Positions 471 to 56,191 of a DNA stretch of 64,000 bases are shown piece after piece. Below the pieces are notes generated by a model, which did not search any database, was not told the origin of the DNA, and was given only the letters and a program-made list of their open reading frames with translations. Where the stretch lies: the IMG/VR virus record IMGVR_UViG_3300012984_000568, positions 20,373 to 84,372 of that record. The stretch is one strand, 5' to 3'. This stretch comes from a virus. How positions within the stretch are numbered: the first letter of the stretch is position 1; the number at the start of each line of letters is the position of its first letter. Both the position numbers and the translations under genes were made by a program.

Positions 471-661
471 GGCGGGGAGACCAACCCAAGCATCCAACGC
501 TCACACCGTTGCGGGCGCTCGATCTGCTCCTGGTGGTGATCGAGAAAGCCGGGCAGACCCGCGGCTCCGGACACAACACGTCGAGCGCCACTGACAGAAC
601 GATCCGAGAACTCACCGATCACGTGAAAGCCGCGCTTGTGCGCGGGAGGAAACGTCGATGA
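467..661 (+). CDS. Small basic hypothetical protein (64 aa)
   Basis: Begins at the GTG of a GTGA overlap with the preceding stop, preceded by a purine-rich GGAAGAG. A longer in-frame extension upstream (to 323) lies wholly inside the previous gene and is rejected. The protein has one amphipathic helix-rich core (RALDLLLVVIEKAG) and ends RGRKRR. It is followed by an ATGA overlap, so it is translationally coupled on both sides. Function unknown. Confidence 0.6.
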   Translation: MRRGDQPKHPTLTPLRALDLLLVVIEKAGQTRGSGHNTSSATDRTIRELTDHVKAALVRGRKRR

Positions 662-999
662 CCACCAAACCAGACTCCCCGCACTCACCAAGTCGTGCGC
701 CCAGAAACGTGAACGAAGCTCTAACCCCGGATTCGCCGGGAGTGGGGCTGACCAAAAGTCCTGATGGGGGCGGCGAGGCTCTCAACCAAACCGCTAGCGC
801 CGTAGCCTACGCCGCCCTGTCTGCAATCGAAGCGGGGAGGGACCGAGTGGAGCTGGTGAATGCGATCCCTGATGAGCGCCTCGATTCGATTGCGTCTTCG
901 GCGCGCAAGTGTCTACCCGACAGCATTGGCGTTGCGATACCCGCGGCGGACTTGCTGCTGATGATCGCCGAAATTCGGCAAGGAAGGACCACGCGATGA
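658..999 (+). CDS. Hypothetical protein (113 aa)
   Basis: ATGA start overlapping the previous stop, with GGGAGGAAA just upstream as ribosome-binding site. The first ~45 residues are polar and Ser/Pro-rich, probably disordered. The rest is predicted helical (AVAYAALSAIEAG, AADLLLMIAEIRQG). No catalytic motif is seen. Member of the coupled rightward operon; function unknown. Confidence 0.6.
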   Translation: MTTKPDSPHSPSRAPRNVNEALTPDSPGVGLTKSPDGGGEALNQTASAVAYAALSAIEAGRDRVELVNAIPDERLDSIASSARKCLPDSIGVAIPAADLLLMIAEIRQGRTTR

Positions 1000-1547
1000 G
1001 CACCGAACCCCATACCAAGCAACCAATCCAACCCGGCGCCTGGCTCAAGTGCATCGACGCCTACAACACCGACAACGCCCTGATCGTTGGCAGCCAATAC
1101 CTCGTCACCGCAATGCACGACGCGACGAACGTTGTGCTTCTAGGCGTTGACTCTCTGCCGTTCTGGCATGTGTCACGCTTCGTGGTTGGCGAGTGCACAG
1201 CGGCAAGCTCTACCCCTGGGAGTGGGGAAGCTCGCTCCGAATCCGATTGTCGGCGCTGCGGCGAGGTCCCGTGTGTCTGCGACAACCCTCAGCGGCCGGC
1301 GGCCCCGTTCTGCTCGACGCCCGCATGCTCAGTTCGCGGCGTAGTGGCTACATGTGACAATCTCTGCACCTACTGCGCTCATCGCCTCGGCGATGTCGGC
1401 TGGGACCCTGGGCCTTTTCACGCGAGCGCGGAGAACGTCGCTGCTCGCGCTCGCCTTGCCGCTTGGAGCAAGCCAGTCCGCCCATTGGCATCGCCGAAAG
1501 CACTAGGCGAACTGGCCAAGCCACACCCGTGGGTCTGCGATGAATAG
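996..1547 (+). CDS. Cys-rich protein with SH3-like N-terminus
   Basis: About 183 residues from the ATG of an ATGA overlap. The N-terminal ~60 residues (GAWLKCIDAYN ... WHVSRFVV) have the alternating hydrophobic pattern of a small beta-barrel and resemble the repeats in the protein at 6316-7341. The middle carries clustered cysteines (CRRCGEVPCVC, then C..C..C..CAHR), suggesting one or two zinc-binding knuckles. It fits the zinc-ribbon-rich character of this arm. No enzymatic motif seen; role unknown. Confidence 0.6.
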   Translation: MSTEPHTKQPIQPGAWLKCIDAYNTDNALIVGSQYLVTAMHDATNVVLLGVDSLPFWHVSRFVVGECTAASSTPGSGEARSESDCRRCGEVPCVCDNPQRPAAPFCSTPACSVRGVVATCDNLCTYCAHRLGDVGWDPGPFHASAENVAARARLAAWSKPVRPLASPKALGELAKPHPWVCDE

Positions 1548-1626
1548 CGAATCACGAGTCGTAGAGGTCCCGCTGACCCGGGGCAAGATCGCGATCATCG
1601 ACGCTCGTCGGCTGCCGCGCTGTTGA
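1540..1626 (+). pseudogene. Short ORF resembling the start of an HNH/AP2 homing endonuclease
   Basis: A 28-codon frame starting at an ATG that overlaps the preceding gene by 8 bases. Its sequence VVEVPLTRGKIAIID matches the usual opening of phage HNH endonucleases with AP2-type DNA-binding domains (PLTxGKxAxVDDEDY), but the frame stops right after it and no HNH motif follows in the 70 bases before the next gene. It looks like a deletion remnant. It could instead be a real tiny peptide; the resemblance covers only ~15 residues. Confidence 0.35.
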
Positions 1627-1696
1627 ATTGGCATCGTGCCCTGTCCGGTGTCGACATGCGCATGCGACCAGGAACCGAACAACTCACGGAGACCAC

Positions 1697-1951
1697 ATGA
1701 AAGAGATCATCGAGCCCGTTGCCGCCGCTGTGCACAACTCTTGGATGGCTGAGAAGCGCATGCAGGGAGTGGACGACAAGCGCTCCGAAACAGGCGAAAA
1801 CCTGCTTGTCCCGTATGACCAGCTGAGCGAGGACGCCAAGGACCTGGACCGAGTGCTGGTCCGCTCAGTGATCGGCGCGCTGCTCGGTCTCGGCTACACG
1901 CTTCAGCGACCAACGTCGCCGAGCGCTCCCGTAGCGGCGGTGGTCAGATGA
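1697..1951 (+). CDS. RyR-domain protein (84 aa)
   Basis: The body of the protein follows the RyR domain pattern (named for ryanodine-receptor repeats and also found in bacteria and phages): a H-x-x-W-x-x-x-K-R-x-x-G opening (HNSWMAEKRMQG), then LVPYDQL, a Dx(L/Y)DR turn (KDLDRVLV), and a closing helix with LGY. The region between the K-R-x-x-G and LVPY segments is short compared with classical copies. The ATG at 1697 is preceded by CACGGAGACC. RyR domains are thought to bind ligands or proteins; the partner is unknown. The stop overlaps the next start (ATGA). Confidence 0.65.
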   Translation: MKEIIEPVAAAVHNSWMAEKRMQGVDDKRSETGENLLVPYDQLSEDAKDLDRVLVRSVIGALLGLGYTLQRPTSPSAPVAAVVR

Positions 1952-2478
1952 TTACGCGAGACCCTATCAGCTACCCCGGTGGTCTCTCAGGTCACTACGG
2001 AAGCCCGATGCCGCCGGTGTTCGCCGAAGCGCTGGAACGCTGCGGCATCAAGGTTCTCAGCGGAACGCCCATTGTCGGACAGCTCGGCGCGTTCACGTTC
2101 CGTTTTCACAACTACTACTGGATCGTTGATGGCCCGATGCCGCTCGACGTGGCGCTGAAGCTGTACGCCGATCCGGTTGGGAAGACCGACATCCGGAGCG
2201 GCGGGCACTGCGGGTGTCCGAGTCCTGAAGAATATGGCGCCGATTACTTCGACGCGGATGGGAAACAGCTCTGCAGTGATCCAGACGGGAAGGAAGCCGC
2301 TTCGCTTGCCGGGTTCATCGAGCGCGGTACGCTCCCGCCTGACGCGGCAGATGACTACCGTTTCGTCCCAGACAAGCGCGTCGGCTACGCCCGCGCTGAG
2401 GTGCGTTGCTACCACGTCGACAGCGAACTCGGGCTCTACATCTTGGCGAATGCGATTCGCGGATTGGGGGCGCCATGA
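1948..2478 (+). CDS. Hypothetical protein (176 aa)
   Basis: Starts in an ATGA overlap with the RyR gene and ends in another with the next gene. Aromatic and Gly/Pro-rich globular protein with a central CGCPSPEEYGADYFD segment. Two close Cys (CGC) and one further Cys make a single metal site conceivable but unproven. Codon use and overlaps support a real gene. No recognised family. Confidence 0.6.
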   Translation: MITRDPISYPGGLSGHYGSPMPPVFAEALERCGIKVLSGTPIVGQLGAFTFRFHNYYWIVDGPMPLDVALKLYADPVGKTDIRSGGHCGCPSPEEYGADYFDADGKQLCSDPDGKEAASLAGFIERGTLPPDAADDYRFVPDKRVGYARAEVRCYHVDSELGLYILANAIRGLGAP

Positions 2479-2684
2479 ACCTTGCCGCCGAACGCGCCCG
2501 TCTCCTCCGCGAATACGTCAGCGAGGGAATCAAAGACGCCGCTGCAGCTGAGTTCGCGGGCTACCCTCCTTGGGACAACGAAGGGAGGCCGCTCAGAAGT
2601 GGGATTCCGTGTTTGGCTCGGTACAACTCGTGGAACCGCGAGTACTCGGCACTCGTACAACGAATGAGGGAATCGAATGGTTGA
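2475..2684 (+). CDS. Small hypothetical protein (69 aa)
   Basis: The ATG is the second half of an ATGA overlap at 2475; longer upstream starts fall inside the preceding gene. The N-terminal half is a charged helix (AERARLLREYVSEGIKDAAAAEF) followed by a Trp/Tyr-containing segment. Overlaps the next gene by 8 bases. Function unknown. Confidence 0.55.
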   Translation: MNLAAERARLLREYVSEGIKDAAAAEFAGYPPWDNEGRPLRSGIPCLARYNSWNREYSALVQRMRESNG

Positions 2685-3093
2685 CCGTTGCTTGTTTTTC
2701 GGGTGCTGGAACGGGCCGGGGCATCAACTTGTCGGGCCAGGCCGTCGCTGTACCGGATTGCCAAACGCAGAGGCCGATCGGCTTGAGTGCGCGCTCGACT
2801 CAAAGTTTGCTCCACAGCGCGATCGAGGCGGCCCGATCACTTTCGGAGAGCGCTGGCTTGACGAGTGCCCCCAAGGCCAGTTCCTCCGTCACCAGCTGCT
2901 CGGCTACACCTTGATCCAGTGGTGGGACCGCTGCCAGGGCGACAAGCGCGGGGCGTGCAACAGCACCGTCTTGCTCGAAGGTGAGCACACGACAGAGGAG
3001 ATGCTCGCCGCTCTGGCGCTCCACTTCCAGCATGTGCTCGAGAATCTGAAGCGTGCCGGCGTGGAGCTGGTGGAGGTGTTTGTGAATGGCTGA
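2677..3093 (+). CDS. Hypothetical protein (138 aa)
   Basis: ATG at 2677 preceded by GAGGGAATCGA inside the previous gene end. N-terminus CLFFGCWNGPGHQL is distinctive, followed by a DRxGP...LDECP stretch and a helical C-terminal third (LALHFQHVLENLKRAGVELVEVF). Four to five cysteines are scattered rather than paired. Overlaps the next start by 8 bases. Family not recognised. Confidence 0.55.
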   Translation: MVDRCLFFGCWNGPGHQLVGPGRRCTGLPNAEADRLECALDSKFAPQRDRGGPITFGERWLDECPQGQFLRHQLLGYTLIQWWDRCQGDKRGACNSTVLLEGEHTTEEMLAALALHFQHVLENLKRAGVELVEVFVNG

Positions 3094-3511
3094 GCCCACC
3101 GAAGAAGAGCGCGCGGAGCTCCGGAAACTAGCCGTGGCGGCAACGCCTGGCCCTTGGTCTCAGGGTCCCGGCTCGGAATCTCGCTCCTTCGTCTACAACA
3201 CAACCGGAATGCGTCGACAGGTGGCGCGCACGCTGAAGCTTGGCGACAACCACGACGCTCGCTTCATCGCCGCAGCCAACCCAGCAGTCGTGCTCTCCCT
3301 GCTCGACGCTCTCGACTCCAGGGATAGGGCGTTGGCCGAAATCAAGGCCGCGCTGCGCCGCTTCGTCCCATCGAAGCTCGACTCCACTCGGTGTCGCAAC
3401 TGCGAGGAGCCCCGTCACGAGCACTACTCGGGCCCATTTGCCGAACCAGACACGCTGTATTGCTCCAAGTACTTCGTGCCCATGAGGCCTACGGAGGGGC
3501 AATCCCGATGA
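3086..3511 (+). CDS. Ead/Ea22-like phage protein
   Basis: The opening ELRKLAVAATPGPW is the signature found at the N-terminus of many Ead/Ea22-type phage accessory proteins, followed by the usual D-A-R-F-I-A-A-A-NP-x-V-x-x-L-L-D-x-L pattern (DARFIAAANPAVVLSLLDAL). The C-terminal ~50 residues add a possible zinc knuckle (CRNCEEPRHEH ... YCSKY). Ea22 of lambda is an accessory early-region protein with poorly understood effects on lytic/lysogenic choice; whether this homologue acts so is unknown. ATGA overlap with the next gene. Confidence 0.65.
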   Translation: MAEPTEEERAELRKLAVAATPGPWSQGPGSESRSFVYNTTGMRRQVARTLKLGDNHDARFIAAANPAVVLSLLDALDSRDRALAEIKAALRRFVPSKLDSTRCRNCEEPRHEHYSGPFAEPDTLYCSKYFVPMRPTEGQSR

Positions 3512-3876
3512 ACATCGACAACATCGCCACGTGGACGCAGATCGCCTACCGCGCACCGGATAAGCGCCCATCACGCAAGCATAAGAAACGGCGCGCCCGC
3601 AACCTTCGACGCTGCCGAGTCGCGCTCGTTCGCTTCGCTGGCCACCACTTCACGGTGACAAGTGATCCCGCGAAGGTCAAGGCACACATCCAGCGGTTCG
3701 TCGACCAGTGGATGTTTTCGAAACCAATCAGGGTCCCGACGTCGCTGCGCGGACTTCTCGGAAAAACCGTGGGCACCGCTTGGTCGACCTGGAAGATGAC
3801 GCTCGACATGCAGGAGTTGATCGCCCAGGCAACGGCCATGGCGAATCAGATGAAGGCGAGTAACCCAGATGAGTAG
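3508..3876 (+). CDS. Basic hypothetical protein (122 aa)
   Basis: Starts at the ATG of an ATGA overlap. A strongly basic block near the N-terminus (RPSRKHKKRRARNLRR) suggests nucleic-acid binding. The remainder contains two amphipathic helices. No recognised domain. Overlaps the next start by 8 bases. Confidence 0.55.
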   Translation: MNIDNIATWTQIAYRAPDKRPSRKHKKRRARNLRRCRVALVRFAGHHFTVTSDPAKVKAHIQRFVDQWMFSKPIRVPTSLRGLLGKTVGTAWSTWKMTLDMQELIAQATAMANQMKASNPDE

Positions 3877-4333
3877 TATTACTGACCAAGTCCGTTGCAT
3901 GGCCTGCGTAACCGAGAGCCTCGGCCCGCCGTTTCCAACGCCGCAACCGCAGCATGTCGATAGGTGCCCGTACGCGCCGACTACCCCAGCATCACCCGAG
4001 CCAGTGGAGCGATGTCCTGATTGCGACAGGCCGCTGTCTGGCGGCGATACCGGGACACTCGCGACGCATTGCTTCGCCAATCGTCAGGGTGATTGGCTCG
4101 GCGAGCGCCTCTGTCGCGACAACACCATCGCCCGCCTGCGCTCAGAGCTCGCCAGTGTACAGGCACTGAATGCGGCCGAGAAGAACGTGCTGTTTTCAGC
4201 CGAGCAGCTGCACAAGAAGCTCGTGAGCGAGTCGATTGACGACGAAGACACCGGGGTCGAGCTCGAGCTCGTGAACAGCGCGGTTCGCGTGCTCTTGGAC
4301 CTTCGAAAGGAAACGCCCAATGTTCCATTGTAG
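3869..4333 (+). CDS. Zinc-ribbon protein with helical tail (154 aa)
   Basis: N-terminal third contains MACV..., RCPY... and ERCPDCDRPL, a CxxC-type knuckle, followed later by THC; together they could complete one zinc site. The C-terminal half is a long charged helix (RLRSELASVQALNAAEKNVL...) likely to form a coiled coil. ATG at 3869 overlaps the preceding gene by 8 bases. The CPDCxRPL knuckle recurs in the protein at 8116-8361, so the two may be relatives. Confidence 0.55.
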   Translation: MSSITDQVRCMACVTESLGPPFPTPQPQHVDRCPYAPTTPASPEPVERCPDCDRPLSGGDTGTLATHCFANRQGDWLGERLCRDNTIARLRSELASVQALNAAEKNVLFSAEQLHKKLVSESIDDEDTGVELELVNSAVRVLLDLRKETPNVPL

Positions 4334-4505
4334 CATCAGCATCCTCACCCGAGACCTCCACCAAGTAGAGCGCGACATCATCACCGTCACCCAAGCTCGA
4401 ATGCGGGCGCCGACCCTGGCCAACCTGATATGCCTGGAAGAGTTGTTTGCGCGACGGGAGCGGGCGGTTCGTGATGTGGAGAGTCAGGTGCGTTGTGGTG
4501 CTTGA
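4320..4505 (+). CDS. Small hypothetical protein (61 aa)
   Basis: ATG at 4320 preceded by CGAAAGGAAA as ribosome-binding site inside the previous gene end. Helical throughout (DLHQVERDIITVTQARMRAP, LICLEELFARRERAVRDVE), probably a helical hairpin. Stop overlaps the following frame. Function unknown. Confidence 0.5.
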   Translation: MFHCSISILTRDLHQVERDIITVTQARMRAPTLANLICLEELFARRERAVRDVESQVRCGA

Positions 4506-4779
4506 GACCGCCGAGGAATTCGAAAAGCGCGCGTCCGCCGGAGCGCCGACGCATGCGGAAGCCGTGGCGCTCATCAAGGAGCGAGATGCCGCCGTAGCTC
4601 GGGCTGCGAGGCTGGAGCTGCTGGATGAGCTAACCGAGCGAGGTTGCGAGTTGATGCGCGAAGCAGCAAACAACCCAGCGCTCGACCACGACACGGTGAT
4701 GTCGCGCATTGCCGGCGTGTTCGCGCAAGCGATTCGCGAGGCAAAGTCCAAATACGGAGCAGCAAAGGAGCCCGGGTGA
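4474..4779 (+). CDS. Helical hypothetical protein (~100 aa)
   Basis: The start is uncertain: ATG 4474 gives a 32-base overlap with the preceding gene, while GTG 4495 or 4498 would match the 4-8 base overlaps usual here. Almost entirely charged helix (ETAEEFEKRASAG ... ALIKERDAAVARAARLELLDELTERGCELMREAANN). Stop and next start form TGATG. Function unknown. Confidence 0.5.
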   Translation: MWRVRCVVVLETAEEFEKRASAGAPTHAEAVALIKERDAAVARAARLELLDELTERGCELMREAANNPALDHDTVMSRIAGVFAQAIREAKSKYGAAKEPG

Positions 4780-4973
4780 TGCGAAACCACAAGGTCGTTT
4801 TCAGGCTCTACGGCATCCGACGCCCGCTCAAGTGGCGCCGGCGCATGGCGCGCCAGAACCGCCGACTCGCTGACCAGCTTGGAAAGAAGTGGCGCGCGTG
4901 CCGCGGATCCCACTCTCGCTGGTGGGAGCAGGGGTTGATTGAATCGATGTTCGAAGGAGTTCGCTTTGACTGA
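4779..4973 (+). CDS. Small arginine-rich protein (64 aa)
   Basis: ATG at 4779 overlaps the previous TGA. More than a quarter of residues are Arg/Lys (RRPLKWRRRMARQNRR), with several Trp, so nucleic-acid binding is plausible but not shown. Its 3' end contains the GAAGGAG ribosome-binding site of the next gene. Confidence 0.5.
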   Translation: MRNHKVVFRLYGIRRPLKWRRRMARQNRRLADQLGKKWRACRGSHSRWWEQGLIESMFEGVRFD

Positions 4974-6138
4974 CCAATCTCGCCTCCAACGCGCCCTCCT
5001 GCTTGCCGACCTAGTTCCTGGAAAACCGAGTGACCCGGCGTCGCCTGGCTGGGGCGGAGTCGAAGCTGACCAGCTCACGGAAGCGCTGCTAGCCCACCGT
5101 GACCCTCAGGTGCGCATCGCGATAGCTGTCTCGAATCTGCTGCTCAAGGAGGCGAGCCGCGGCGCATTGCAGTCCTTCGACGAGCGAGAGGAGCAGGTGC
5201 ACCCGATTGCGAGGGCTCACCAGCCGTTACTCGACGGGCTGCGTGAGGCTCAATCCGAAGCCGAGGCAAACCCGAAGCTTCAGGAAAGAGTCGACGCGCA
5301 CCCGAGTGGATTCGTTCACCCAGCGCCAGCATCGCCACCCACAAAAGAACAAGAGCCGCCCGAAGACGACTCCCGCTCTGACCCTCGGCAGAAGAATCGC
5401 CAGAGAGCCGCCGTCCAAACTGACAAGGCCGGACAGGGAATGCATACCATGCCGCACGCTGAAAGTTACCTGGCCCCAGGTCTGCAATTCAAAACGCTAC
5501 GCGAGGAGCGCGACACCCTCCGCGCCAGAGTGGAGGAGCTGGAGGCGCGGCTCGGCGTGCTACCAGGCAACCCCGTCGAGGACGCAACGACTCGCCAGCA
5601 GCTGCAGCGAGGGCTCGACGACGTGGCCGGCGCGCTGGGCCGCCCGGCGCTTCTTGTAAGCGAGCACGGTCCGGCGGTGAAGGCCCGCATCCAGCAGCTC
5701 GAAGGCGAGCTAGCCACCCTGGGCTCAGCGTGCGACAAGATGCGCGTTCAGCACTCCGAGACATGCCGCGGCTTGGATGACGAAGCGAGCGAGCTGCGCA
5801 CCGAGGTCAACCGCATCAACGCCGAGCTAACCGAGCTGAAGCGCCAGCAGCCCTACATGGACGAAGAGCAGCGCGAGCTAGGGAGGCGTGAGCGGGATGG
5901 CGAGGTAGCGGAGCTGGTCAAGAAGCTGGAGGGCTGGGATGTAGTCGGCGACGCGCTTCGGGAGAGAGAGGCTGTTGTCGAAGCCGCGCGCCGAACGGCT
6001 GACGTGTGGGAGCGGATGTTTCGTGAGTCGCATTCCAGATTGAGTCGCGCCCGCACCCTGATGATGGTCGGCACTCGTGACGAGATTTCGAAGTTCGCGG
6101 AAAACCTAGACCACGAACCAAGCGAGACGAAGACATGA
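4966..6138 (+). CDS. Coiled-coil protein (390 aa)
   Basis: Start chosen at TTG 4966 because a near-consensus GAAGGAG lies six bases upstream and the start overlaps the preceding stop. Residues ~1-90 are helical; ~95-155 are Pro/Glu/Gln-rich and probably disordered; ~165-370 form long heptad-like coiled coils (REERDTLRARVEELEARL, ASELRTEVNRINAELTELKRQ). A partner-binding or structural role is likely, but nothing more can be said. It is the largest product of the rightward operon. Confidence 0.6.
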   Translation: MTDQSRLQRALLLADLVPGKPSDPASPGWGGVEADQLTEALLAHRDPQVRIAIAVSNLLLKEASRGALQSFDEREEQVHPIARAHQPLLDGLREAQSEAEANPKLQERVDAHPSGFVHPAPASPPTKEQEPPEDDSRSDPRQKNRQRAAVQTDKAGQGMHTMPHAESYLAPGLQFKTLREERDTLRARVEELEARLGVLPGNPVEDATTRQQLQRGLDDVAGALGRPALLVSEHGPAVKARIQQLEGELATLGSACDKMRVQHSETCRGLDDEASELRTEVNRINAELTELKRQQPYMDEEQRELGRRERDGEVAELVKKLEGWDVVGDALREREAVVEAARRTADVWERMFRESHSRLSRARTLMMVGTRDEISKFAENLDHEPSETKT

Positions 6139-43064: not shown

Positions 43065-45095
43065 TCAGTTTGGGGCTTCGTAGAAGAAAAGTTGCTGCTC
43101 GATGCAAGCCGAGAAGAATTCATCCCAGTCCACGAACTCGCGCTTTTTCTGCTTCACGCAATAGTCGTGAGCGATCATCTCGAGTGCCGCGTTGGCGTAC
43201 ACAAGACAGTCCCATAGCTCGTTTTTTGCGCCGCTTGGCCGGCGCCATTCAGTCCCGATGCGCTCATTCGTGACAGCGTCGCGCTTCTCGACTTTGACCT
43301 CGACCGTAAGCTCTTTCAGCTGATCGTCGACGACGTCTTGTGGCGCGTTGAAGTGCCCGTGCGGTTGCAGCCCATCGCCGATCCAACTGCGGCGCAAGCG
43401 CGCGCTCCAACGGTCCTTGTAGATGTCGACCGTGATGCCGTAGGCGATGGTGCCCATGGTGGTCGTGAATTCCGAGAATTCTTTGAGGTTCGCGCCCTTC
43501 GGCGGCAGTTCGCGCCCCTTGATCGGGAACACGCCGGCGCCGCAATCAGCGGCGAAGCGATAGACTTGGTCCGTTAGATGACCTGAATCGATGAGCGTGA
43601 GTTCGATCCGGTACCGCTTGCCGTCGTCAGCCTTGTATTCCTTGCTCTCGATGAGTTCGCGCAGCTTGCCCCAAGTCGTTGGACTGTCGGTTTGCTCCGT
43701 ATCGCCGGCGTAACGCCAATAATCGATGAGAAAGGCTCGACCCCCGGTGCACCAACCGAACACAGATACGGCGAGGTTGTCACCGTGCACGTCTACCGTG
43801 CAGACGAGCAGAAGAATCGGGCCGCCCGCGTGCTCTTTTGCCCACTTGTTCGGAATTTCTCCGAACTTGTAGATACCGATGCGTCGATGCGGCGAAACGG
43901 CTTCGAACCGAACGCGGTCACCCTGCGGCTTGAACGGAGCGCCCAGGTCGTTGTTGTAGAACACCTGCAGCTTCTTGACGCTTCGGGCTACGTTCCTTTC
44001 GGGGTCCCACGCTTCAAGAAAATCGCGAACGATCGCTTCCCATGTGCGCATCCCAGGCGGCGAATACAAGCCGCTCAGGTGATAGCTGCGCAGCTGCTCG
44101 TGCTGCGGCTGTACAGTCGGCTTCCACTTCGCTCCGTTTGCCGGTGCGAGCAGCTTGAGCTTGTCGTCGTTGGTGTGCCTGTGACCACATCCTGCGTTTT
44201 CGCAGATGTAGTGCACCGACCCTGGGGTAACGATACGCGTTTCACCTTCACCCTTGTCTGTCTCCCACCAAATTCCGGAGACGGAGCCTGTCAGGTTGTC
44301 GGTGCGATTCCACCGCAACACTTGCGGGAAACCGCAGCGAAGACACCTGATGAAATAATAGCGCTGGTCACCCCGGCGGAAGCGATCGGCGATCCGCGAC
44401 GTGCCCTCCTCGTTCGGTGTTGACCCGTCGAGTAGCTTGTAACTCTTCTCGAAGGAGTTGCAGCGAGCCGCCGACAACTTCATTGGGTCGCCGTCTTTAC
44501 CGACGACGAGAGGCCAAGAGTCGACCTCGTCCCGGCACATGAACCGGATCGGCTGCTGCCGAAACTTGTTCGGCGATTTGGCGCCGTTGGGCAGTAGGGC
44601 GCCGCCACCAGCCCATTCTAGTTTTTTGGCGGTCTTTCCGGTCTTGCGGGCGTTGCCGACGTCCGACGACTGAATCAGATGCGCGAGGCCCGACTCCTCG
44701 AGCATCGGGATGATCGACAAGTCGATGCGCGTCTTCGCGAGGCTGTCGTCACTTGTGACGTACATCATCGCGGCGGTCTTCACGTGCGCGATCGAGTAAC
44801 CGATGAAGTTCTCGAGCACTGCGGTCGTGAAGCCGACCTGCGCGCCTTTCATGACCGCCACTTCGCGCACGGGCGAGGTGACGCTCAGGCAATCAACAAC
44901 CTCCTGCCAGTAGGGAGTTACCGCAAAACGGAACGGCCCGGGCATCGCCGCCGCGGCCTGCGGAAGATAGCGCTCAGACTCCGCCCACTCGGACGGTGTT
45001 TTGAACACCATCCTTGTCGTGAGCGCGCCGAACTGCTGATCGAGAAAGAGTAGCTGGTCCTCAGTCGGTTCGGTTGGCACCGATTGCACGCTCAA
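43065..45095 (-). CDS. Terminase large subunit, GpA family (676 aa)
   Basis: ATPase: Walker A-like KGAQVGFTT (residues 83-91) and Walker B FMCRDEVD (~185-192). Also typical for GpA: PYWQEVVDCLSVTSPVREVAVMKGAQVGFTTAVLENFIGY, and two CxxC zinc pairs (FIRCLRCGFPQ, YICENAGCGHRH). The C-terminal nuclease half includes LLVCTVDVHGDNLAVSVFGW and LTLIDSGHLTDQVYRFA. It cuts concatemers and powers DNA packaging; GpA relatives cleave at cos sites. It overlaps the small subunit by 35 bases. Confidence 0.92.
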   Translation of the reverse strand: MSVQSVPTEPTEDQLLFLDQQFGALTTRMVFKTPSEWAESERYLPQAAAAMPGPFRFAVTPYWQEVVDCLSVTSPVREVAVMKGAQVGFTTAVLENFIGYSIAHVKTAAMMYVTSDDSLAKTRIDLSIIPMLEESGLAHLIQSSDVGNARKTGKTAKKLEWAGGGALLPNGAKSPNKFRQQPIRFMCRDEVDSWPLVVGKDGDPMKLSAARCNSFEKSYKLLDGSTPNEEGTSRIADRFRRGDQRYYFIRCLRCGFPQVLRWNRTDNLTGSVSGIWWETDKGEGETRIVTPGSVHYICENAGCGHRHTNDDKLKLLAPANGAKWKPTVQPQHEQLRSYHLSGLYSPPGMRTWEAIVRDFLEAWDPERNVARSVKKLQVFYNNDLGAPFKPQGDRVRFEAVSPHRRIGIYKFGEIPNKWAKEHAGGPILLLVCTVDVHGDNLAVSVFGWCTGGRAFLIDYWRYAGDTEQTDSPTTWGKLRELIESKEYKADDGKRYRIELTLIDSGHLTDQVYRFAADCGAGVFPIKGRELPPKGANLKEFSEFTTTMGTIAYGITVDIYKDRWSARLRRSWIGDGLQPHGHFNAPQDVVDDQLKELTVEVKVEKRDAVTNERIGTEWRRPSGAKNELWDCLVYANAALEMIAHDYCVKQKKREFVDWDEFFSACIEQQLFFYEAPN

Positions 45096-47118: not shown

Positions 47119-47550
47119 CTAAGTGCGTCCAATCTCTTCCAAGAGCGGTGCGATTCGCAGCTGGAATGCCGCGGTTTCACTCGAAATGCGCTCTACGATT
47201 TTTAGCCGCTTCGCGTGGTCTGAAAGCAGCCGCTTGTGGTCGCTGAGGAGTGTGGTGTGCCCCTTTACCTGTCGCCGGAGCGCTCGCTGGTTCTGCGCCA
47301 ACTTGCCGAACTCCACGTCGAGCCGATCGACGGTCGCTTCGTCCGATGGGAGTAGGTAGGCCAGCGCGCTCACGCTGATGAGCATGCGCCGGCCCTCGCG
47401 CTTCGAACAGCGCACGCTCTCGAGCCGCTCGGCGCGCTCGACTAGGCGTCGGGCATATTCGGCACGACGACGCGAGCTCAGTTTGGCCACGCGTGGCGAC
47501 TTCGCTGCCAAGGCATCACCCAATTGGGTGGTGGTGAGCCAGCGCTTCAT
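47119..47550 (-). CDS. HTH plus coiled-coil protein (143 aa)
   Basis: N-terminal WLTTTQLGDALAAKSPRVAKLSSRRRAEYARRL reads as a MerR/excisionase-like helix-turn-helix, then a segment MLISVSALAYLLP and a long C-terminal coiled coil (KHRLLSDHAKRLKIVERI-type heptads). Could be a DNA-binding regulator or structural partner. ATGA coupling with the upstream gene. The gap 47002-47118 after it has no gene. Confidence 0.5.
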   Translation of the reverse strand: MKRWLTTTQLGDALAAKSPRVAKLSSRRRAEYARRLVERAERLESVRCSKREGRRMLISVSALAYLLPSDEATVDRLDVEFGKLAQNQRALRRQVKGHTTLLSDHKRLLSDHAKRLKIVERISSETAAFQLRIAPLLEEIGRT

Positions 47551-47846: not shown

Positions 47847-48743
47847 TTATTGTCCCTCCAGCTCGAATAGGATGCGCGCGCAGGTCCACCACTGCTTGCG
47901 GCGTGTCGCATCAACTGGAACCGGAGACACGTCCATCAGCCGCTCGCCGAAATCCTCCAACGTACGCCTTGGTGTTTCACTGGCGGTTCTAGTCGTCGTC
48001 GGCTTCACAGTCGCTCTAGATGCTGCTGCCTCTTGGGCTTTCTTTTCCTTCATCGCCTCAGCTTCAGCCCGCTGGCGAGCCTCCGCTTCCTGGGTTTTGC
48101 GTCCAAGCTCCAGAGCCGCCAGTCGGCGTTCCTCGGCCTCGCGCACTTTTTCCTTGGTGTAGTCCAGCGCTTTGCTGAGCGGATCGAGCGGACAGTCGAG
48201 CACGTCCGAAACCCTCAACACCACCCCATCGTCAGGAATGACCTCTCCTGACTCGATTGCGTCGAGTTCCTTCAGCTGGATTCGCAACATCTTCGCCATG
48301 GTCTTTGGCTCGATGCCGTTCGTCGTGCGCGCTGAGCGAATCGCAGCGCCGATCCCTTGCGGATCTCGGGCGTGCCCAGAGGGATCAAAAAACGGCGGCG
48401 TGGTGGTCGGGGTAGCGGTCTTTGCCATGATGATCTCTCCAAGATTTGCGGATAGCGGTTTACTTGTTGTTGGCGCCTTGCTTCGCGGAGCAGGAGGCGG
48501 CCGAGGTGGTCCGATTGGCGCAACGGGCGCTGGCGCAATAACCGACTGAGACAACCACTCATCGTCGGTCACCTTGCGGACTGACGCTAAATCGATGGTT
48601 TCATTGCGGCCGTTGATTTTTACGACAACCGTGTACCCGCGCATCTGTACGACGCGACCAGGCAGTTCCGTGACGCTGCCGCTGGTCGTTCGCCAGCGCA
48701 CGACCACGTCTTCGCCGCGATGAAATCTTTTCTTCTCACCCAC
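47847..48743 (-). CDS. KOW/SH3-like plus XRE-type HTH protein (298 aa)
   Basis: Start chosen at GTG 48743 (VGEKKRFHRGEDVVVRW); the longer frame upstream lies inside the preceding gene. Residues ~8-65 form a small barrel-like domain (GEDVVVRWRTTSGSVTELPGRVVQMRGYTVVVKINGR). ~90-150 is a Pro-rich linker. ~175-235 is an XRE-like helix-turn-helix (IGAAIRSARTTNGIEPKTMAKMLRIQLKELDAIESGE). A charged helical tail follows. Likely a DNA-binding regulator; an internal ATG at 48428 could give the HTH part alone. Confidence 0.6.
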   Translation of the reverse strand: MGEKKRFHRGEDVVVRWRTTSGSVTELPGRVVQMRGYTVVVKINGRNETIDLASVRKVTDDEWLSQSVIAPAPVAPIGPPRPPPAPRSKAPTTSKPLSANLGEIIMAKTATPTTTPPFFDPSGHARDPQGIGAAIRSARTTNGIEPKTMAKMLRIQLKELDAIESGEVIPDDGVVLRVSDVLDCPLDPLSKALDYTKEKVREAEERRLAALELGRKTQEAEARQRAEAEAMKEKKAQEAAASRATVKPTTTRTASETPRRTLEDFGERLMDVSPVPVDATRRKQWWTCARILFELEGQ

Positions 48744-49533
48744 GGGAACCTCCGACGCGCTGCGCGCGCGTTCGCACAGGGTCAGCGCCGGCCTTCGACT
48801 CCGCCCACTCAGCATGGGCCTTTTCGCTAGCCGCCTTCGCAGTGGCGATTGCGCTAGAGCGCAATTCGCGATTGCCCTTCTTTGGCAGCTCACACGCGGC
48901 TAGTAGCTTGTCAGGCGCGGCACTGAGCAAGATCGCGAGACCGGCCCACTCCCCGAGCTCGGCCTCCACGCTAGTGCGACGGACCGCGGACCAAATGCGA
49001 CCCATGGTGCGCTCCCAGCGCGCCAATCTGGCCTCATACTGCTTTTTCTTGATTGGCTTGCCCCGCTTCCCAATCTCCTGGATTGGACGCTCGCCTACTG
49101 GGTGCTGCCCCTTCACGTATTGGTCGCGCGCGCCGTACCCCTCATCACTGCGGAACTCAGCCGGCGGCGGAGCATAGCGCGCCAGCAGCACACGCTGACT
49201 CTCATGGGTGAGAGCGAGCCAGGCCGTGCTCAGCCACCGATGGCGCTCGACCTGGCCGATCTCCTCGCCATTGCGCCCCCAACCCAGCTGGGCGTCCTTG
49301 TAGGGGTGAGTGTTCGGCACGCCACCGCCGGGGCCGCCGCGCTCGAGCTGCGCGATGATGCCGCCAAGCGTGCCCTTCTCACCAAGCGCGGCGTTGCCCG
49401 CCTCCAAGAACCACGCGAGGTCAGGATCGATTCCAGTGCGCGATCGTCGTGGCTTCGCGACGGGCAGCCCCGTCCACACGCGGTCCTTCGCGCTCGTTCG
49501 CTTCTGTGTCTGCATTGCCGCCTCGCTCGCCAT
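48736..49533 (-). CDS. Hypothetical protein (265 aa)
   Basis: ATG 49533 with a near-consensus AAGGAGG eight bases upstream, the best ribosome-binding site in this region, at the first gene after a 64-base gap. The layout DPDLAWFLEAGNAALGEKGTLGGIIAQLERGGPGGG...NTHPY, then WLALTHESQRVLLARYAPPP, suggests a phage antitermination or middle-region protein of unknown type. Likely first gene of a sub-operon. Confidence 0.55.
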   Translation of the reverse strand: MASEAAMQTQKRTSAKDRVWTGLPVAKPRRSRTGIDPDLAWFLEAGNAALGEKGTLGGIIAQLERGGPGGGVPNTHPYKDAQLGWGRNGEEIGQVERHRWLSTAWLALTHESQRVLLARYAPPPAEFRSDEGYGARDQYVKGQHPVGERPIQEIGKRGKPIKKKQYEARLARWERTMGRIWSAVRRTSVEAELGEWAGLAILLSAAPDKLLAACELPKKGNRELRSSAIATAKAASEKAHAEWAESKAGADPVRTRAQRVGGSRG

Positions 49534-51235: not shown

Positions 51236-51525
51236 TCGATTCTCACTTTCGGGCCAGGGTCGTCTTGAAGCGGGTAGGGTGGTGGCCAAATACAGGCCGC
51301 ATTCCAGCGTTCGGGCGATCCGATTGGCGCCGGCAGCGGCACTAGCTCTGGGATCCTCAATACTGCAGCGGTAGCAAGGTAGCGCGGCCACGTGAGCGTC
51401 AGCCCCACGCTGTCAACGCTCCCCCGATGGTCGCACGTATGCGAGTCGTCCAGCCGGCACCACACCTTCGTCTTCTCGCGAGTGGCAATCCACGTCACCT
51501 CTGTGTATGAGCCGCAGCGAATCAC
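51232..51525 (-). CDS. Hypothetical protein (97 aa)
   Basis: GTG 51525 in a GTGA overlap with the membrane-protein gene; upstream extension rejected as it overlaps that gene out of frame. Beta-like opening VIRCGSYTEVTWIATREKTKVWCRLDDSHTC with three Cys, then Trp/Pro-rich. Unknown function. Confidence 0.45.
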   Translation of the reverse strand: MIRCGSYTEVTWIATREKTKVWCRLDDSHTCDHRGSVDSVGLTLTWPRYLATAAVLRIPELVPLPAPIGSPERWNAACIWPPPYPLQDDPGPKVRIE

Positions 51526-51764
51526 TTGCCGCTCCGATGCCTGGCTTTGAGAGCATGCTCCGCTACCGAATCCAGGAAACTGGACGTGCTGCGCAATTCT
51601 GCTCCAAGCAAGATGCAGAGCGTGCCCATGAAGGCAATGGGCCAAATGAAGAAGTTCAGCAGTGCTGTGTCCGATCCGGCGAAGCGCGCCGCGAACCACA
51701 CGGTTGCGCTGCCGAGAACCATCCAGGCCAAGATGATCGCGATAATGACCAGCGCCGTCGTCAC
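51522..51764 (-). CDS. Two-pass membrane protein (80 aa)
   Basis: GTG 51764 in a GTGA overlap. Two hydrophobic segments (VTTALVIIAIILAWMVLGSATVWFAARF; ALLNFFIWPIAFMGTLCILLGAEL) with a short turn, then a charged tail. Early-region membrane protein directly after the AAA+ gene and a small gene; role unknown, could be exclusion or lysis-related. Confidence 0.55.
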   Translation of the reverse strand: MTTALVIIAIILAWMVLGSATVWFAARFAGSDTALLNFFIWPIAFMGTLCILLGAELRSTSSFLDSVAEHALKARHRSGK

Positions 51765-51979
51765 GTGTTGCGCTCCGTGTCGGGGGTTGGCTCGAGCGGC
51801 GCGCCAACAGGGGCACATTGGCGCTGCTCAATTGCGACAAGGCGTGCTTCGACGCTGGCTTGGAATTCGTCGAGCACTTGGCAGAGTGAAGCGTTGATTC
51901 CCAGATGCCCCGAGTTCAGCTCTGTTTTTGGCATGAAGAACTCCAGGTAGCGCTCACTGATCTTCTGGCCTGGCTTCAC
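51761..51979 (-). CDS. Small hypothetical protein (72 aa)
   Basis: GTG 51979 overlaps the AAA+ gene stop (GTGA). KPGQKISERYLEFFMPK then a helix LGINASLCQVLDEFQASVEARLVAIEQRQ. Being coupled directly to the ATPase gene makes it a possible adaptor or substrate, but nothing in the sequence proves this. Confidence 0.5.
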   Translation of the reverse strand: MKPGQKISERYLEFFMPKTELNSGHLGINASLCQVLDEFQASVEARLVAIEQRQCAPVGAPLEPTPDTERNT

Positions 51980-53448
51980 TCGATCCTCCCTGGGCGCTTC
52001 TCGATGCCGCCCGGCTGAGCGCCGCCCATCGCGTCGCACTTCTCGATCACGAGCTCGGTCAGCTTTGATGCCAACAGTTCGGCGTAGCTCTCGCGCACCG
52101 CGTCTTGGATGTCATAGCGAATCAGCCCCGTCGCTTCTCCGGTGGCTCGGTGGCGCTGCAGCGCGCGCCGGGTAGCGCGGTTGACGATGCCAGTTACCAG
52201 CGCGCCGTTCAGCGCGTCACGGAGGCGAATCAGCTCAGCGCCATGTCGAAACTGCAACTCGTATAGAGTGGCAGTCTCACTATGCAGCAGCTGAGTGGCG
52301 TACTCGGCTAGTTCGTCGACGCTGGAATCGACATGGCGACCGCGCAGCGCGAGCGCCATGATCGTCTTGGTCGCCGCCGCATCAGGACGCCCGATCCGGA
52401 TCTTCCGGTCGATGCGCCCGTCTCGAACGATCGCCGGGTCGAGCGAGTCGGGGCGGTTCGTCGAGAGCATGACGAAGCACCCCGACTCGTCGAGGCCGTC
52501 CATTTCGGCCAGGAACATCGGGACGAGCGTTTGCGTGATCGCCATCGTGAGACCCTGGCCCTCGCGGGTGCCGAGCAGCGCATCGGCCTCATCGATGAAC
52601 AGCACCGCAGGGTTGCCCGTCTTTTCCTTGTGCGCTCGAGCGCGCGCGAACAACCCGCGCACCGCAGCCTCCGACGCACCCACGAATCGGTTCAGGACCT
52701 CGGCCGCTTTGACGTAGATGAACCCGCTCGAGTCACCGTCGACAGCGAGCGCGGTCGCGACGGCCTTGCCGAGCATCGTCTTGCCGGTACCGGGAGGGCC
52801 GTAGAGCAGCACGCCCTTGGTCGGCTTCTGGCCGTACGCCTTGTACGCCTCGGCGTAGCGAATCGGGTACTCGATGGCCTCGCGCAGCGCTTCTTTCGCT
52901 TCCTCGTGCCCGCCGATGTCATCCCAAGAAACACCCGGTGATTTGTGCACCACGTAGTCCGACGGCTCCTCGTTGCCGACGTTGCGCAGCACCACTTTGC
53001 CCGTGGGGTCGAGCTGCACCTTGTCCCCGACTCGGGCGCTGATGGTCGAGGGCAGGAAGGCTGTTTGCTGCAGCATGCCCTGGTCGTACATGACGTCGTG
53101 CCCAGTCTTGCCGGCCACGGTCACCACGGGACCGAAGTTCACGTGCGCTGGGAGGACTTCGAGGATCGAATTCGATTCAGCCGCGATCGAGACCTGAGCG
53201 CCAGCCTTGCAGCCGTCGGGCAGCTTCAGGCTCATCTGCCCATTCATCGCGAATACCATGCCGCGCTGGCCGGGTAGAACGCAGCCGACAGTGCCGATGA
53301 GCTGAGGCTTTTCTCGCGTGCGGTTGAGCGTGTCGTTCGCCTGTTTAAGCTGGTAACGGAGCTTTTCCTCCTCGGTTCGGAACTCGTCAGGTTGAATCTG
53401 GAATGGGTTGACGGTGAATGGCCTGGTGAAGAGTTTGTATTCGGTCAC
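51976..53448 (-). CDS. ARC/Mpa-like AAA+ unfoldase (490 aa)
   Basis: ATP-driven ring unfoldase by architecture. Residues ~22-46 are a heptad-like coiled coil (RTEEEKLRYQLKQANDTLNR). ~50-100 and ~105-160 look like two OB-type barrels. ~172-365 is an AAA module of proteasomal ATPase type: VSWDDIGGHEEAKEAL, Walker A GPPGTGKT (217-224), pore loop aromatic-hydrophobic-Gly F255-V256-G257, Walker B LFIDEAD, sensor-1 N331 (STNRPDSLDPA), arginine fingers in RDGRIDRKIRIGRPD. A helical C-terminal domain follows. The C-terminus (RPGRIE) lacks the HbYX or GQYL tail used to dock on a 20S core. No protease subunit gene is visible, so partner and target are unknown. Confidence 0.8.
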   Translation of the reverse strand: MTEYKLFTRPFTVNPFQIQPDEFRTEEEKLRYQLKQANDTLNRTREKPQLIGTVGCVLPGQRGMVFAMNGQMSLKLPDGCKAGAQVSIAAESNSILEVLPAHVNFGPVVTVAGKTGHDVMYDQGMLQQTAFLPSTISARVGDKVQLDPTGKVVLRNVGNEEPSDYVVHKSPGVSWDDIGGHEEAKEALREAIEYPIRYAEAYKAYGQKPTKGVLLYGPPGTGKTMLGKAVATALAVDGDSSGFIYVKAAEVLNRFVGASEAAVRGLFARARAHKEKTGNPAVLFIDEADALLGTREGQGLTMAITQTLVPMFLAEMDGLDESGCFVMLSTNRPDSLDPAIVRDGRIDRKIRIGRPDAAATKTIMALALRGRHVDSSVDELAEYATQLLHSETATLYELQFRHGAELIRLRDALNGALVTGIVNRATRRALQRHRATGEATGLIRYDIQDAVRESYAELLASKLTELVIEKCDAMGGAQPGGIEKRPGRIE

Positions 53449-53840
53449 GGAGCAGAGGAGCCTTTCTTCAATTCGGAGATGGAGAAACAGACTTCGCCGA
53501 TGGCGTCTGGGCCGTGGCGGCGGTTGATGCTCGCTGCGCGGTGGAGCAGCTGGCGAGCGAGTGTTTCGTCACGCTTTGCGACGATGAGCACGCGCTCGCA
53601 CTCTTCGGGACTGAACGGGAACTCGACCGCGAGCGCTTTCGCTTGCGTCAGGTCGGGACCTGGCGGTTCAGTCCGCGGCGCTGGTGGCTTCGGGTCGGGC
53701 CCGAATGTGGTGGTGAGCCAGCCGAAAATCTCGTCAGGCGTGACGAGCGGACCCGCTGCGGGCTTCACGCGCGGCAGCCGCGGCCCGCGGTCGATGTACG
53801 GGTGTTCCGGATCTTCACTGTTCCAGCGATCGTCACTCAT
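53445..53840 (-). CDS. Hypothetical protein (131 aa), upstream partner of the AAA+ gene
   Basis: ATGA-coupled to the ATPase gene. Pro-rich N-terminal 70 residues, then EFPFSPEECERVLIVAKRDETLARQLLHRAASINRRHGPDAIGEV, helical and basic. It might supply a substrate or adaptor for the ATPase given the tight coupling; not recognised. Confidence 0.5.
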   Translation of the reverse strand: MSDDRWNSEDPEHPYIDRGPRLPRVKPAAGPLVTPDEIFGWLTTTFGPDPKPPAPRTEPPGPDLTQAKALAVEFPFSPEECERVLIVAKRDETLARQLLHRAASINRRHGPDAIGEVCFSISELKKGSSAP

Positions 53841-54187
53841 CGCAGGATGTCCTTCGGATCGCGCGTCCTGTTGAGGTAGTCCCGAACCTGGTCCGTCAAG
53901 CGCGCGAGTCGGGTGGCTCGAGGTGTCACGGCTCGGTCTTCGGTAACGTACTTCACCATGCGGTGGAGCAGTGCTCGGCCCTCGCGGCGTCGCCCATCAA
54001 GCTCAGCGATGCGCGCTTGGCTCGATGCGGCACCGCGCTCGAACGCCGAGAGCGCGACTACCTGCAGAGGCGCCGAGCGGCAGCAGCGGGGGCACCACCA
54101 ATGGTCTGCTTCGCTATTCACAATCTCGGAGTCGCACCCGTACGGGCATGCTAGGTGAGGGCCGGCGAGGGTCATCGGCTCCGTCAT
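53837..54187 (-). CDS. Zinc-ribbon protein (116 aa)
   Basis: ACPYGCDSEIVNSEADHWWCPRCCR in the first 40 residues is a CxxxC...CxxC zinc ribbon. The rest is a helical stretch (ARIAELDGRRREGRALLHRMVKYV) and a basic tail with RTRDPKDIL. Coupled at both ends. Confidence 0.5.
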   Translation of the reverse strand: MTEPMTLAGPHLACPYGCDSEIVNSEADHWWCPRCCRSAPLQVVALSAFERGAASSQARIAELDGRRREGRALLHRMVKYVTEDRAVTPRATRLARLTDQVRDYLNRTRDPKDILR

Positions 54188-54459
54188 CGGCGGCCTGCCT
54201 TTCGCTTGGCGCGCTCGGCTTTGCGCTTTGCCCGCTTGGCCTTCTGCGCAGCGGTGAACACCGGTTGGTGTTGGCGCTTCGGTGGTTCAGGCGCCGGCGG
54301 CGCGGCGGGCAGAGCTCGCCTGGGTTCGGGCATCGCTGGCCCTGGCGCGAAGTCCGGTCGGCCGCTTCCGCCGAAGCCAATGCCGCCGGTGCTCGCGATC
54401 GCCATGAGTGCCATCAGCTGCAGCGGGCTACGGCGGCGTAGCGGGTTTTGGTCAGCCAT
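54184..54459 (-). CDS. Small basic, Pro-rich protein (91 aa)
   Basis: ATG 54459, overlapping the preceding gene by 8 bases. N-terminal LQLMALMAIASTGGIGFGG is short and hydrophobic; the C-terminus is a Lys/Arg/Ala repeat (AQKAKRAKRKAERAKRKAGRR). The basic tail suggests nucleic-acid contact. Function unknown. Confidence 0.45.
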   Translation of the reverse strand: MADQNPLRRRSPLQLMALMAIASTGGIGFGGSGRPDFAPGPAMPEPRRALPAAPPAPEPPKRQHQPVFTAAQKAKRAKRKAERAKRKAGRR

Positions 54460-55306
54460 CGGCGGCGAGCCTCATCGCTGGGCGTGGAGTCTTCGCGAGT
54501 CGGTCAGCAAGCGCGGTCAGCTCGGCACCGCGCAGGGTTTTCGCGGCATCGCGCGCCTTGGCGCCGTACAGGCCCGCCTCGGCGTTCTCGAGCGCCAGGT
54601 TGCGCGCGCGCCGTAGCTCTTCGTCCGACGCTGGCGGTGGCCCGCCACGGGGCGAGGCGCGCGGCTCTGAGCGCTTGGGCTTCTTGGCCTCGTCGCGCAG
54701 CCAAAGCTCAAAACAGGCGTCCTGGTCGACCATCTGCCGCCCCTTGCCCTTGGCCTGAGCCTTGAAGCGCTTGAACTCGTAGGCGACGTCCAACCCGAGC
54801 TCGGCGCCGAGTGCTTGGTGCTCTGGGGTTGGCTCTGCCAATTCGCTGGTGTGTGTGTGATCCGGAGAGGAGGGGGAGTGGAGAGGAGAGGGAATCGTGA
54901 CGCCTACCGTGACAGGCTGCGGCGGTTCGTCGTCTGTCCCACCGTGACCACCTCCGTGACCGCCACGTGACTTGGCTTTTCTGAGCCGTGCCGCTTCGCG
55001 CGCCTTCAGCACCTCGTCACGCGAGGACGACCAGTCGAGGTAGTCGTGCATGAGCATTTGGTCATCGGCTTCGTGGAGCAAACCGACCGTAACCAGTGCG
55101 GCAAGGGCCGCGGCGCGCTTCTTTGGGTTGGCTGGCCCACGTACCTCATCGAGCATGTCCTTGGGGATCGCGCCGTCTGTCAGGTGCTTGCCGCAATATG
55201 CGCGCAGCCCAAGCCAAAGGTGAATTGCCTCACTGCCCCCGAGCTTCGCCGCTCTGATGAACTTCGGGTGATCGAGAATACCGTCGTCGAGTTCCAGCCA
55301 GCTCAT
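54452..55306 (-). CDS. Phage replisome organizer-like/replication protein (284 aa)
   Basis: Start chosen at ATG 55306 (MSWLELDDGILDHPKF), one base after the upstream stop; the longer frame is inside the preceding gene. The N-terminal ~110 residues (WLELDDGILDHPKFIRAAKLGGSEAIHLWLGLRAYC ... AALAALVTVGLLHEADDQMLMHDYLDW) match the winged-helix-like domain of phage replication-organizer proteins. The middle is disordered (HGGGHGGTDDEPPQP) and the C-terminal part basic. Probably binds the origin or loads helicase; no origin repeats are identified. Confidence 0.6.
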   Translation of the reverse strand: MSWLELDDGILDHPKFIRAAKLGGSEAIHLWLGLRAYCGKHLTDGAIPKDMLDEVRGPANPKKRAAALAALVTVGLLHEADDQMLMHDYLDWSSSRDEVLKAREAARLRKAKSRGGHGGGHGGTDDEPPQPVTVGVTIPSPLHSPSSPDHTHTSELAEPTPEHQALGAELGLDVAYEFKRFKAQAKGKGRQMVDQDACFELWLRDEAKKPKRSEPRASPRGGPPPASDEELRRARNLALENAEAGLYGAKARDAAKTLRGAELTALADRLAKTPRPAMRLAADG

Positions 55307-55307
55307 C

Positions 55308-55592
55308 TCACCATCCCGTCCATTTCGTTTCCACCAATGTGCCCCTGTCCATCGGTTGCTTTGCGCGCGAGACACGTGTGCGCGCGGCCTTGCCGGCGCG
55401 TCGGCGAGCTGACTCAGCCCTGCCAGCGTCGAGCTCGGCTTCGGTCTTTGACGTGATCGCTCGAGCGCGCCACGCTGGAAGCCTCGAGGCAAGCGTCACG
55501 ACCGTTGGAGGCGTCGTTGCTGGCGTGCCGCCGCCGCGATTCAGACAAGCATCGCAGTCGCAGCACAGCGCGTGCCCCTCGGTGAAGCTCAT
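55308..55592 (-). CDS. Small Cys-cluster protein (94 aa)
   Basis: ATG 55592 overlapping the RusA-like gene. MSFTEGHALCCDCDACLNRGGG: a CCxCxxC knot near the N-terminus, then basic Arg/Ala-rich sequence. HxLCCDCxxCLNR resembles small DksA/zinc-type phage proteins. Unknown role. Confidence 0.45.
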   Translation of the reverse strand: MSFTEGHALCCDCDACLNRGGGTPATTPPTVVTLASRLPAWRARAITSKTEAELDAGRAESARRRAGKAARTRVSRAKQPMDRGTLVETKWTGW

Positions 55593-56191
55593 TGGCGGGC
55601 CCCCGTTCGCAGCTCGATGATCACGCAACCTTCACCAGGCGGAGCCGGCTCCCAAATCTGGTGCACCTCGATCACCGAGCCCTTGTCGTTGACCAGGTAG
55701 CCGAGCCCCGGCACCGAGCGCTTACTGGTCTTCTTGCGCTTCGTTGGCACGCACAGCTTGTCGACCGGGATTTTCCCCCAATCGCTCGTTGGGTCCGTTT
55801 CGATGTGCGAGAAGCGGCGACAAATCACCTGCGGTCGCCCGCCCAACGGCGCGCTCGCTCGGCCGTTCGCTTGCAGCAGCATCAGCTGCCCGACCTTCGC
55901 TTTTATCTCCCCCTGCGACCAACCCGACGCGCCACGGGTGGCGTTCGAGGTCGGGCACAGGTGCAGTGGAAGCGCGCACTGAAGCACGAGCTGCCCCTTG
56001 GGCTTCGGGCGAACGATCCAGTTCAGCGCCGGCGGCCGAGACAAGATGTCGTGTGCCAGCGCGAACGCCTTCGGAATGTTGAAGTGCGGATGAGCCTTCG
56101 GGCGGCGTTTCGGTGCCTTCTTGCCTGTGACCAGCGCGGTCACCTTGGCCATCAGTGACGCCTTCGAGAGGCGCTTCTTTGCGACCTTCAT
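55589..56191 (-). CDS. RusA-like Holliday-junction resolvase fold protein (200 aa)
   Basis: Start ATG 56191 from an ATGA overlap. The C-terminal ~115 residues follow the RusA pattern: YR(F)..SHIETDPTSDWGKIPVDKLC (D-x-x-N/D...K-x-x-x-D region), then GLGYLVNDKGSVIEVHQIWEPAPPGEGCVIIEL (the acidic DD-like turn and closing strands). RusA resolves junctions in phage replication or packaging. A conserved second Asp seems replaced by NDK, so catalytic competence is uncertain. Coupled to replication-type genes. Confidence 0.55.
   Translation of the reverse strand: MKVAKKRLSKASLMAKVTALVTGKKAPKRRPKAHPHFNIPKAFALAHDILSRPPALNWIVRPKPKGQLVLQCALPLHLCPTSNATRGASGWSQGEIKAKVGQLMLLQANGRASAPLGGRPQVICRRFSHIETDPTSDWGKIPVDKLCVPTKRKKTSKRSVPGLGYLVNDKGSVIEVHQIWEPAPPGEGCVIIELRTGARQ

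Follow-up and report, generated by a model that had tools for sequence, protein, structure and literature searches.

A predicted ARC/Mpa-type AAA+ unfoldase in the early operon of a tailed phage

The window analysed here, a stretch of 64,000 nucleotides, corresponds to bases 20373-84372 of the 84,372-base virus record IMGVR_UViG_3300012984_000568. The record is that of a tailed phage with a contractile tail, encoding a terminase large subunit (43065-45089 of the window, minus strand, phrog_15), portal, tail sheath, baseplate wedge and replication initiation protein, in agreement with the earlier note on this DNA, which had taken the locus to be phage-encoded. An integrase-like gene, recognised by eye, is located near the left end, and the virus is therefore probably a prophage or a temperate phage. 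Outside the window, at bases 487-6109 of the record (L002:487-6109), there is a cluster of large genes, including one for a phospholipase-D-like protein, with weak matches to the defence proteins ZacB and PDC-M27B, which is possibly a defence island or host flank. Within the window, a 388-aa protein encoded at 60545-61711 matches phrog_2045, a group of unknown function (E 4.5e-84).

The gene under study lies at positions 51976-53448 on the minus strand, an orientation that the earlier note had not given, and encodes a protein of 490 amino acids from a GTG start. The reading frame is open and shows a strong coding bias, with a GC content of 0.67/0.44/0.80 at the three codon positions and the highest codon score in its neighbourhood. 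It forms part of a single extended array of minus-strand early genes running into the packaging and structural genes, and both flanking genes, also on the minus strand, overlap it by exactly 4 bases (GTGA): a 72-aa gene (51761-51979), which overlaps the stop of the ATPase gene, and a 131-aa gene directly upstream (53445-53840). The latter in turn shares 4 bases (ATGA) with a 116-aa gene carrying CxxxC and CxxC pairs (53837-54187, minus strand), and the gene for the phage replication initiation protein (54452-55306, minus strand, phrog_2447) is found four genes upstream of the ATPase, in the same operon-like run of overlapping genes. On the other side, the 72-aa gene is followed by an 80-aa gene with strongly hydrophobic segments (51522-51764, minus strand).

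The ATPase gene is an accessory, optional cargo of this early operon, as indicated by comparison with contig L107. This contig is a close collinear relative of the window phage (its terminase is 67% identical), with homologues in the same order of the genes at 47119-47550, 48736-49533, 54452-55306, 55589-56191 and others. Both the replication initiator and, as a weak homologue, the 131-aa protein (MSDERW start) are retained, but, despite the collinearity, there is no ATPase gene, which argues against a core replication role for the ATPase. The 116-aa gene is not conserved in L107, and no relatives of the 72-aa gene were found in viral contigs. Thus, of the proposal in the earlier note that the ATPase is tightly coupled to three small genes, the tight 4-base overlaps stand, whereas a conserved four-gene block does not.

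Unfoldases of the ARC type have been described in actinobacteria and a small number of other lineages, where they are tied to pupylation. Among the NCBIfam models, the best match of the window ATPase was TIGR03689 (proteasome ATPase ARC/Mpa), with 248.8 bits over nearly its full length (protein residues 65-457 on model positions 63-481), while the CDC48 and PAN models scored lower (191.9 and 191.6 bits, respectively); the score is about half the equivalog cut-off of TIGR03689 (504.75 bits). TIGR03689 was likewise the best model for each of the nine other family members examined, which came from phages, a phage-like plasmid and Patescibacteria (196-339 bits), and a profile of the family aligned with Mpa/ARC chains across positions 9-468.

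The layout of coiled coil, two barrel-like segments and AAA module proposed in the earlier note was recovered in an AlphaFold model built on 11 family sequences, whose confidence is moderate (pLDDT 79.6, pTM 0.62). All of its elements are encoded on the minus strand. The predicted N-terminal helix, a short coiled coil of 25 residues (residues 21-45, positions 53314-53388), corresponds, in the ARC alignment, to the end part of the coiled coil, ahead of a P-P-x-x-G segment; in Mpa, the N-terminal coiled coil is the docking arm for substrate or adaptor. Two all-beta, OB-like barrels follow, at residues 49-99 (53152-53304) and 108-156 (52981-53127), which align with OB1 and OB2 of ARC, respectively, and individual Pfam ARC OB models gave no match to the protein. 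An ARC-specific beta-hairpin insertion is placed at residues 394-408 (52225-52269) both by the model and by the column alignment with ARC, and together with a C-terminal strand at residues 481-484 it supplies ARC-type elements of a beta-grasp fold. When the model was compared with the PDB by Foldseek, ranks 1-30 were all Mpa (best E 1.4e-32, with an alignment spanning 477 columns), followed by Rpt subunits of the 26S proteasome; in BFVD, which holds predicted viral structures, the top matches were mostly giant-virus AAA proteins, chiefly over the AAA core. In the column alignment, the P-P-x-x-G turn after the coil, both barrels and the motor motifs are shared with two genuine ARCs, the ARC-specific insertion lying before an N-G-A-x-x-x-x-x-V-[ND] segment.

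The motor motifs, likewise on the minus strand, were read in the translation, and those for which the earlier note gave residues are where it placed them. They comprise Walker A (GPPGTGKT, residues 217-224, positions 52777-52800), the pore loop FVG (residues 255-257, 52678-52686), which is F/Y-V-G in the aligned family and ARC, the sensor Asn331 within TNRPD (52456-52458) and the arginine fingers R342 and R345 within RDGRIDRK (52414-52425), in addition to Walker B (FIDEAD, residues 284-289, 52582-52599). The sensor and both arginine fingers are invariant in 11 relatives, and the catalytic residues as a whole are invariant or nearly so.

Relatives were sought by tblastn and by profile and motif scans, the latter including the family-specific motif VPMFLAEMDG, and the family was found in a small number of viral contigs. 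Further carriers are the Brevundimonas phages Polewnik and Strzyga, a 462-kb huge metagenomic phage and a Methylobacterium phage-like plasmid. Carriage by Patescibacteria is sporadic: one genome scan yielded four contigs with the gene, and a survey of 380 genomes found it in 3. At least two of these copies (L091 and L089) stand among ordinary chromosomal genes, as judged from translations read by eye, the L091 copy adjoining an Era-like GTPase gene and ScpA/ScpB-like genes.

A tree of 27 rows, in which the sampled ARCs are actinobacterial only and PAN/Rpt sequences are left out, groups the family in one clade (support 100/99), apart from actinobacterial ARC yet nearer to it than to CDC48 and FtsH, which are parted from ARC plus the family by a branch with support of 100/99. 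The family is best read as a new sister family of ARC, but one that may nest among the ARCs of Nitrospirae or other non-actinobacteria. The proteins of Polewnik, Strzyga and the Methylobacterium plasmid, annotated as "proteasome-associated ATPase" from similarity only, belong to the same clade, but these B-type members lack the OB barrels. The AAA core is common to PAN, Rpt1-6, CDC48 and FtsH, and PAN and Rpt also have a coiled coil, but with one OB domain instead of two (PMC8142254). Taken together, the model search, fold matches, ARC alignment and tree bear out the assignment made in the earlier note: the best structural match is not to an unrelated AAA clade, and barrels are present in the N-terminal half. 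On family and predicted fold, the window protein qualifies as a predicted ARC/Mpa-type unfoldase. It shares with Mpa/ARC (TIGR03689; PDB 7px9, 5kzf) the N-terminal helix, the two barrels, the AAA module with its F/Y-V-G pore loop and the hairpin insertion, with full-length profile and fold matches, and differs in its shorter helix, separate clade, sub-cut-off score and C-terminal end.

As the earlier note had observed, there is no docking tail: the protein ends in RPGRIE, and the GQYL docking motif is absent from it and from every relative examined. The motif is likewise missing from ARCs of organisms that have no proteasome genes (PMC3511204). The 20S family PF00227 was detected in none of 16 records, Patescibacteria genomes included, although a diverged small proteasome homologue (PPH) could escape this model. 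Unlike the Mpa/ARC systems, the record of the window phage has no proteasome, Pup or Pup ligase family (PF05639 and PF03136 absent), and no protease gene of the known families adjoins the ATPase, so that the corresponding statement of the earlier note holds within those families. Among the genomes carrying the family, Pup ligases were found only in a Sungbacteria MAG (G009; L079-L082), which has four Pup-ligase-family genes, two of them in tandem, besides the family ATPase; neither 20S nor Pfam Pup was detected in it. A close parallel is the ARC of actinobacteria that have no proteasome, such as Corynebacterium glutamicum, an ARC without docking motif (PMC3511204, PMC8223512); in C. glutamicum, the pupylation machinery frees ferritin iron without a proteasome (PMC8223512). 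The C. glutamicum system, however, is chromosomal and retains Pup, PafA and Dop, whereas the record of the window phage has no Pup ligase. A literature search returned nothing relevant on phage-borne ARC, DUF1360 or Patescibacteria with Pup ligase.

Conserved partners of the ATPase are present in other genomes, not in the window. In 12 relatives (eight viral contigs, including huge phages, and four Patescibacteria), the ATPase gene is followed by a gene for a protein of 63-90 aa and then by one for a DUF1360 membrane protein. A family search detected DUF1360 in 9 of the 16 records, in every case one gene beyond the ATPase, with L089 as an additional block locus, and the DUF1360-kind proteins of the relatives carry a CPYCxSHW motif. 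The same gene order was observed at two out-of-sample loci found through the ATPase alone, on a 480-kb contig (L123) and a 72-kb contig (L124). Both models match on L123 (small protein, 2.2e-8; DUF1360, 1.1e-29). On L124 the DUF1360 model matches (2.8e-23), but the small protein, although Cys-rich, gives no match to the small-protein model. The small proteins have a basic or glycine-rich start, one helix and disorder, with a Cys-rich tail in 11 of the 12, mostly CxC or CxCW; the one from the 462-kb phage is a variant without the terminal CxC. In a structural model of the small protein, the helix is predicted at residues 32-53 and the remainder is of low confidence. In the window, the 72-aa and 80-aa genes occupy the positions of the small partner and of DUF1360, respectively, and neither matches these families; the 80-aa gene was considered as a positional counterpart of DUF1360 and given no weight, a hydrophobic segment being present in 5 of 30 early genes.

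Homology of the small partner to Pup was tested with sequence profiles and is doubtful. With a profile of nine sequences, Pup was the best match in the whole PDB (E 0.0033), a promising result that weakened to E 0.075 when the profile was enlarged to 11 sequences and vanished in a jackknife that removed the glycine-rich members. Moreover, the Pfam Pup model did not match the small proteins, which end in CxC or a Cys-rich tail and not in the C-terminal GGQ/GGE of Pup. A suggestive resemblance persists in size, gene position, disorder and the single helix. The Pup helix binds the coil of Mpa (PMC8755798), and because of this Mpa-Pup biology the small protein may be a docking adaptor.

The explanation that we favour, and hold to be probably correct, is that the window gene encodes an ATP-driven, ring-shaped ARC/Mpa-type unfoldase that works without a 20S proteasome. 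By the logic of the family, the ATPase would assemble as a hexamer kept together by the double barrel ring, its paired N-terminal helices would capture a helical adaptor or tag, and the aromatic FVG pore loop would pull a disordered end through the pore, so that the bound protein or complex would be unfolded or dismantled and then released. In the relatives, the adjacent gene probably supplies the dedicated adaptor, the small protein, which would be tied to the membrane via DUF1360. Proteasome-independent action, as inferred for the C. glutamicum ARC, seems the most likely mode for the window ATPase as well, with a protein complex of the host or of a competing phage as its most likely target. 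The explanation is weakened by the TIGR03689 score of only half the cut-off, the short N-terminal helix and the lack of the relatives' partners in the window.

The main alternatives to proteasome-independent action are the feeding of a protease and the remodelling of replication complexes. In the former, the ATPase would deliver chosen host proteins for degradation to a host protease chamber (20S, ClpP, HslV or a phage proteasome homologue). The fold is indeed that of a proteasome feeder, as the Foldseek matches to Mpa indicate, and PPHs are known in tailed phages (PMC8665760), but the RPGRIE end, the lack of GQYL among the relatives and the lack of PF00227 proteins in the 16 records, diverged PPHs apart, make this alternative unlikely. 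We regard as similarly improbable a replication or recombination remodeller that dismantles initiator complexes as ClpX does with the Mu transpososome: its position four genes downstream of the initiator gene in one overlapping run would fit such a role, but L107 retains the initiator without the ATPase, and in the relatives the ATPase does not have replication genes as its neighbours.

A diverged CDC48- or FtsH-type protein of host origin, with a superficial similarity to ARC, could be suspected from a phmmer search against the PDB, in which two-domain CDC48 chains rank first because both of their AAA domains add up; since an alignment along the entire protein, both barrels and the hairpin insertion included, is obtained with ARC alone, and the tree splits CDC48 and FtsH from the family with strong support, we find this hardly credible. 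Counter-defence or superinfection exclusion, in which a defence or competitor protein would be unfolded or segregated, is instead a role within the favoured explanation of a proteasome-independent unfoldase, and a plausible one, if short of an even chance. It agrees with accessory cargo in an early operon of a record with an integrase-like gene and with a distant AAA-domain similarity to the defence ATPase IetA (73 bits), but that match does not extend beyond the generic AAA core, and the ATPase has no adjacent defence partner.

The family thus forms a separate clade in phages, some of them above 450 kb, and sporadically in Patescibacteria, and it occurs with no 20S and, in most cases, no Pup ligase, a distribution indicating that the ARC-type motor also exists in its own right, independently of the proteasome. 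The conserved block in the relatives suggests an undescribed unfolding system, and it provides a concrete partner set for DUF1360, a domain of unknown function, and for the longstanding question of what ARC does without a proteasome. More tentatively, and as a reading less likely than not, the ATPase can be pictured as the motor of a membrane-located unfolding system that is guided by a tag or adaptor and common to huge phages and Patescibacteria. In such a system, the helix of the Pup-like small protein would dock on the N-terminal coil of the ATPase and its Cys-rich tail would join the CPYC of DUF1360 through a metal or a disulfide, so that protein dismantling at the membrane would need no proteasome; the window phage would have a stripped-down version with a partner of its own.

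Several relatives show peculiarities of their own. In IMGVR_UViG_3300031576_000010 (L011:4378-6816), the ATPase homologue is split by an intein-like insertion of about 300 residues located exactly within the Walker A loop (GPPG|C...HN|CGKT). A frameshift splits the chromosomal ATPase copy of an Uhrbacteria genome (L020:7470-9337 / L091), in which the genes for its small partner and for DUF1360 are intact. An extra domain between coil and barrels is found in several relatives (L008, 5371-7056; L017; L018), and that of L008 bears a weak resemblance to MIB_HERC2 (E 2.3e-4, below the cut-off). The barrel-less sub-branch (L012, L013 and L021) has GCGDPNCxxC near the N-terminus in two of its three members and a CDCPAC variant in the plasmid member. 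Finally, L015 (MT835496.1), although labelled as a bacteriophage, is probably a bacterial contig: it encodes a frameshifted ARC of actinobacterial type, after which an apparent Dop/PafA-like gene continues in the same frame.
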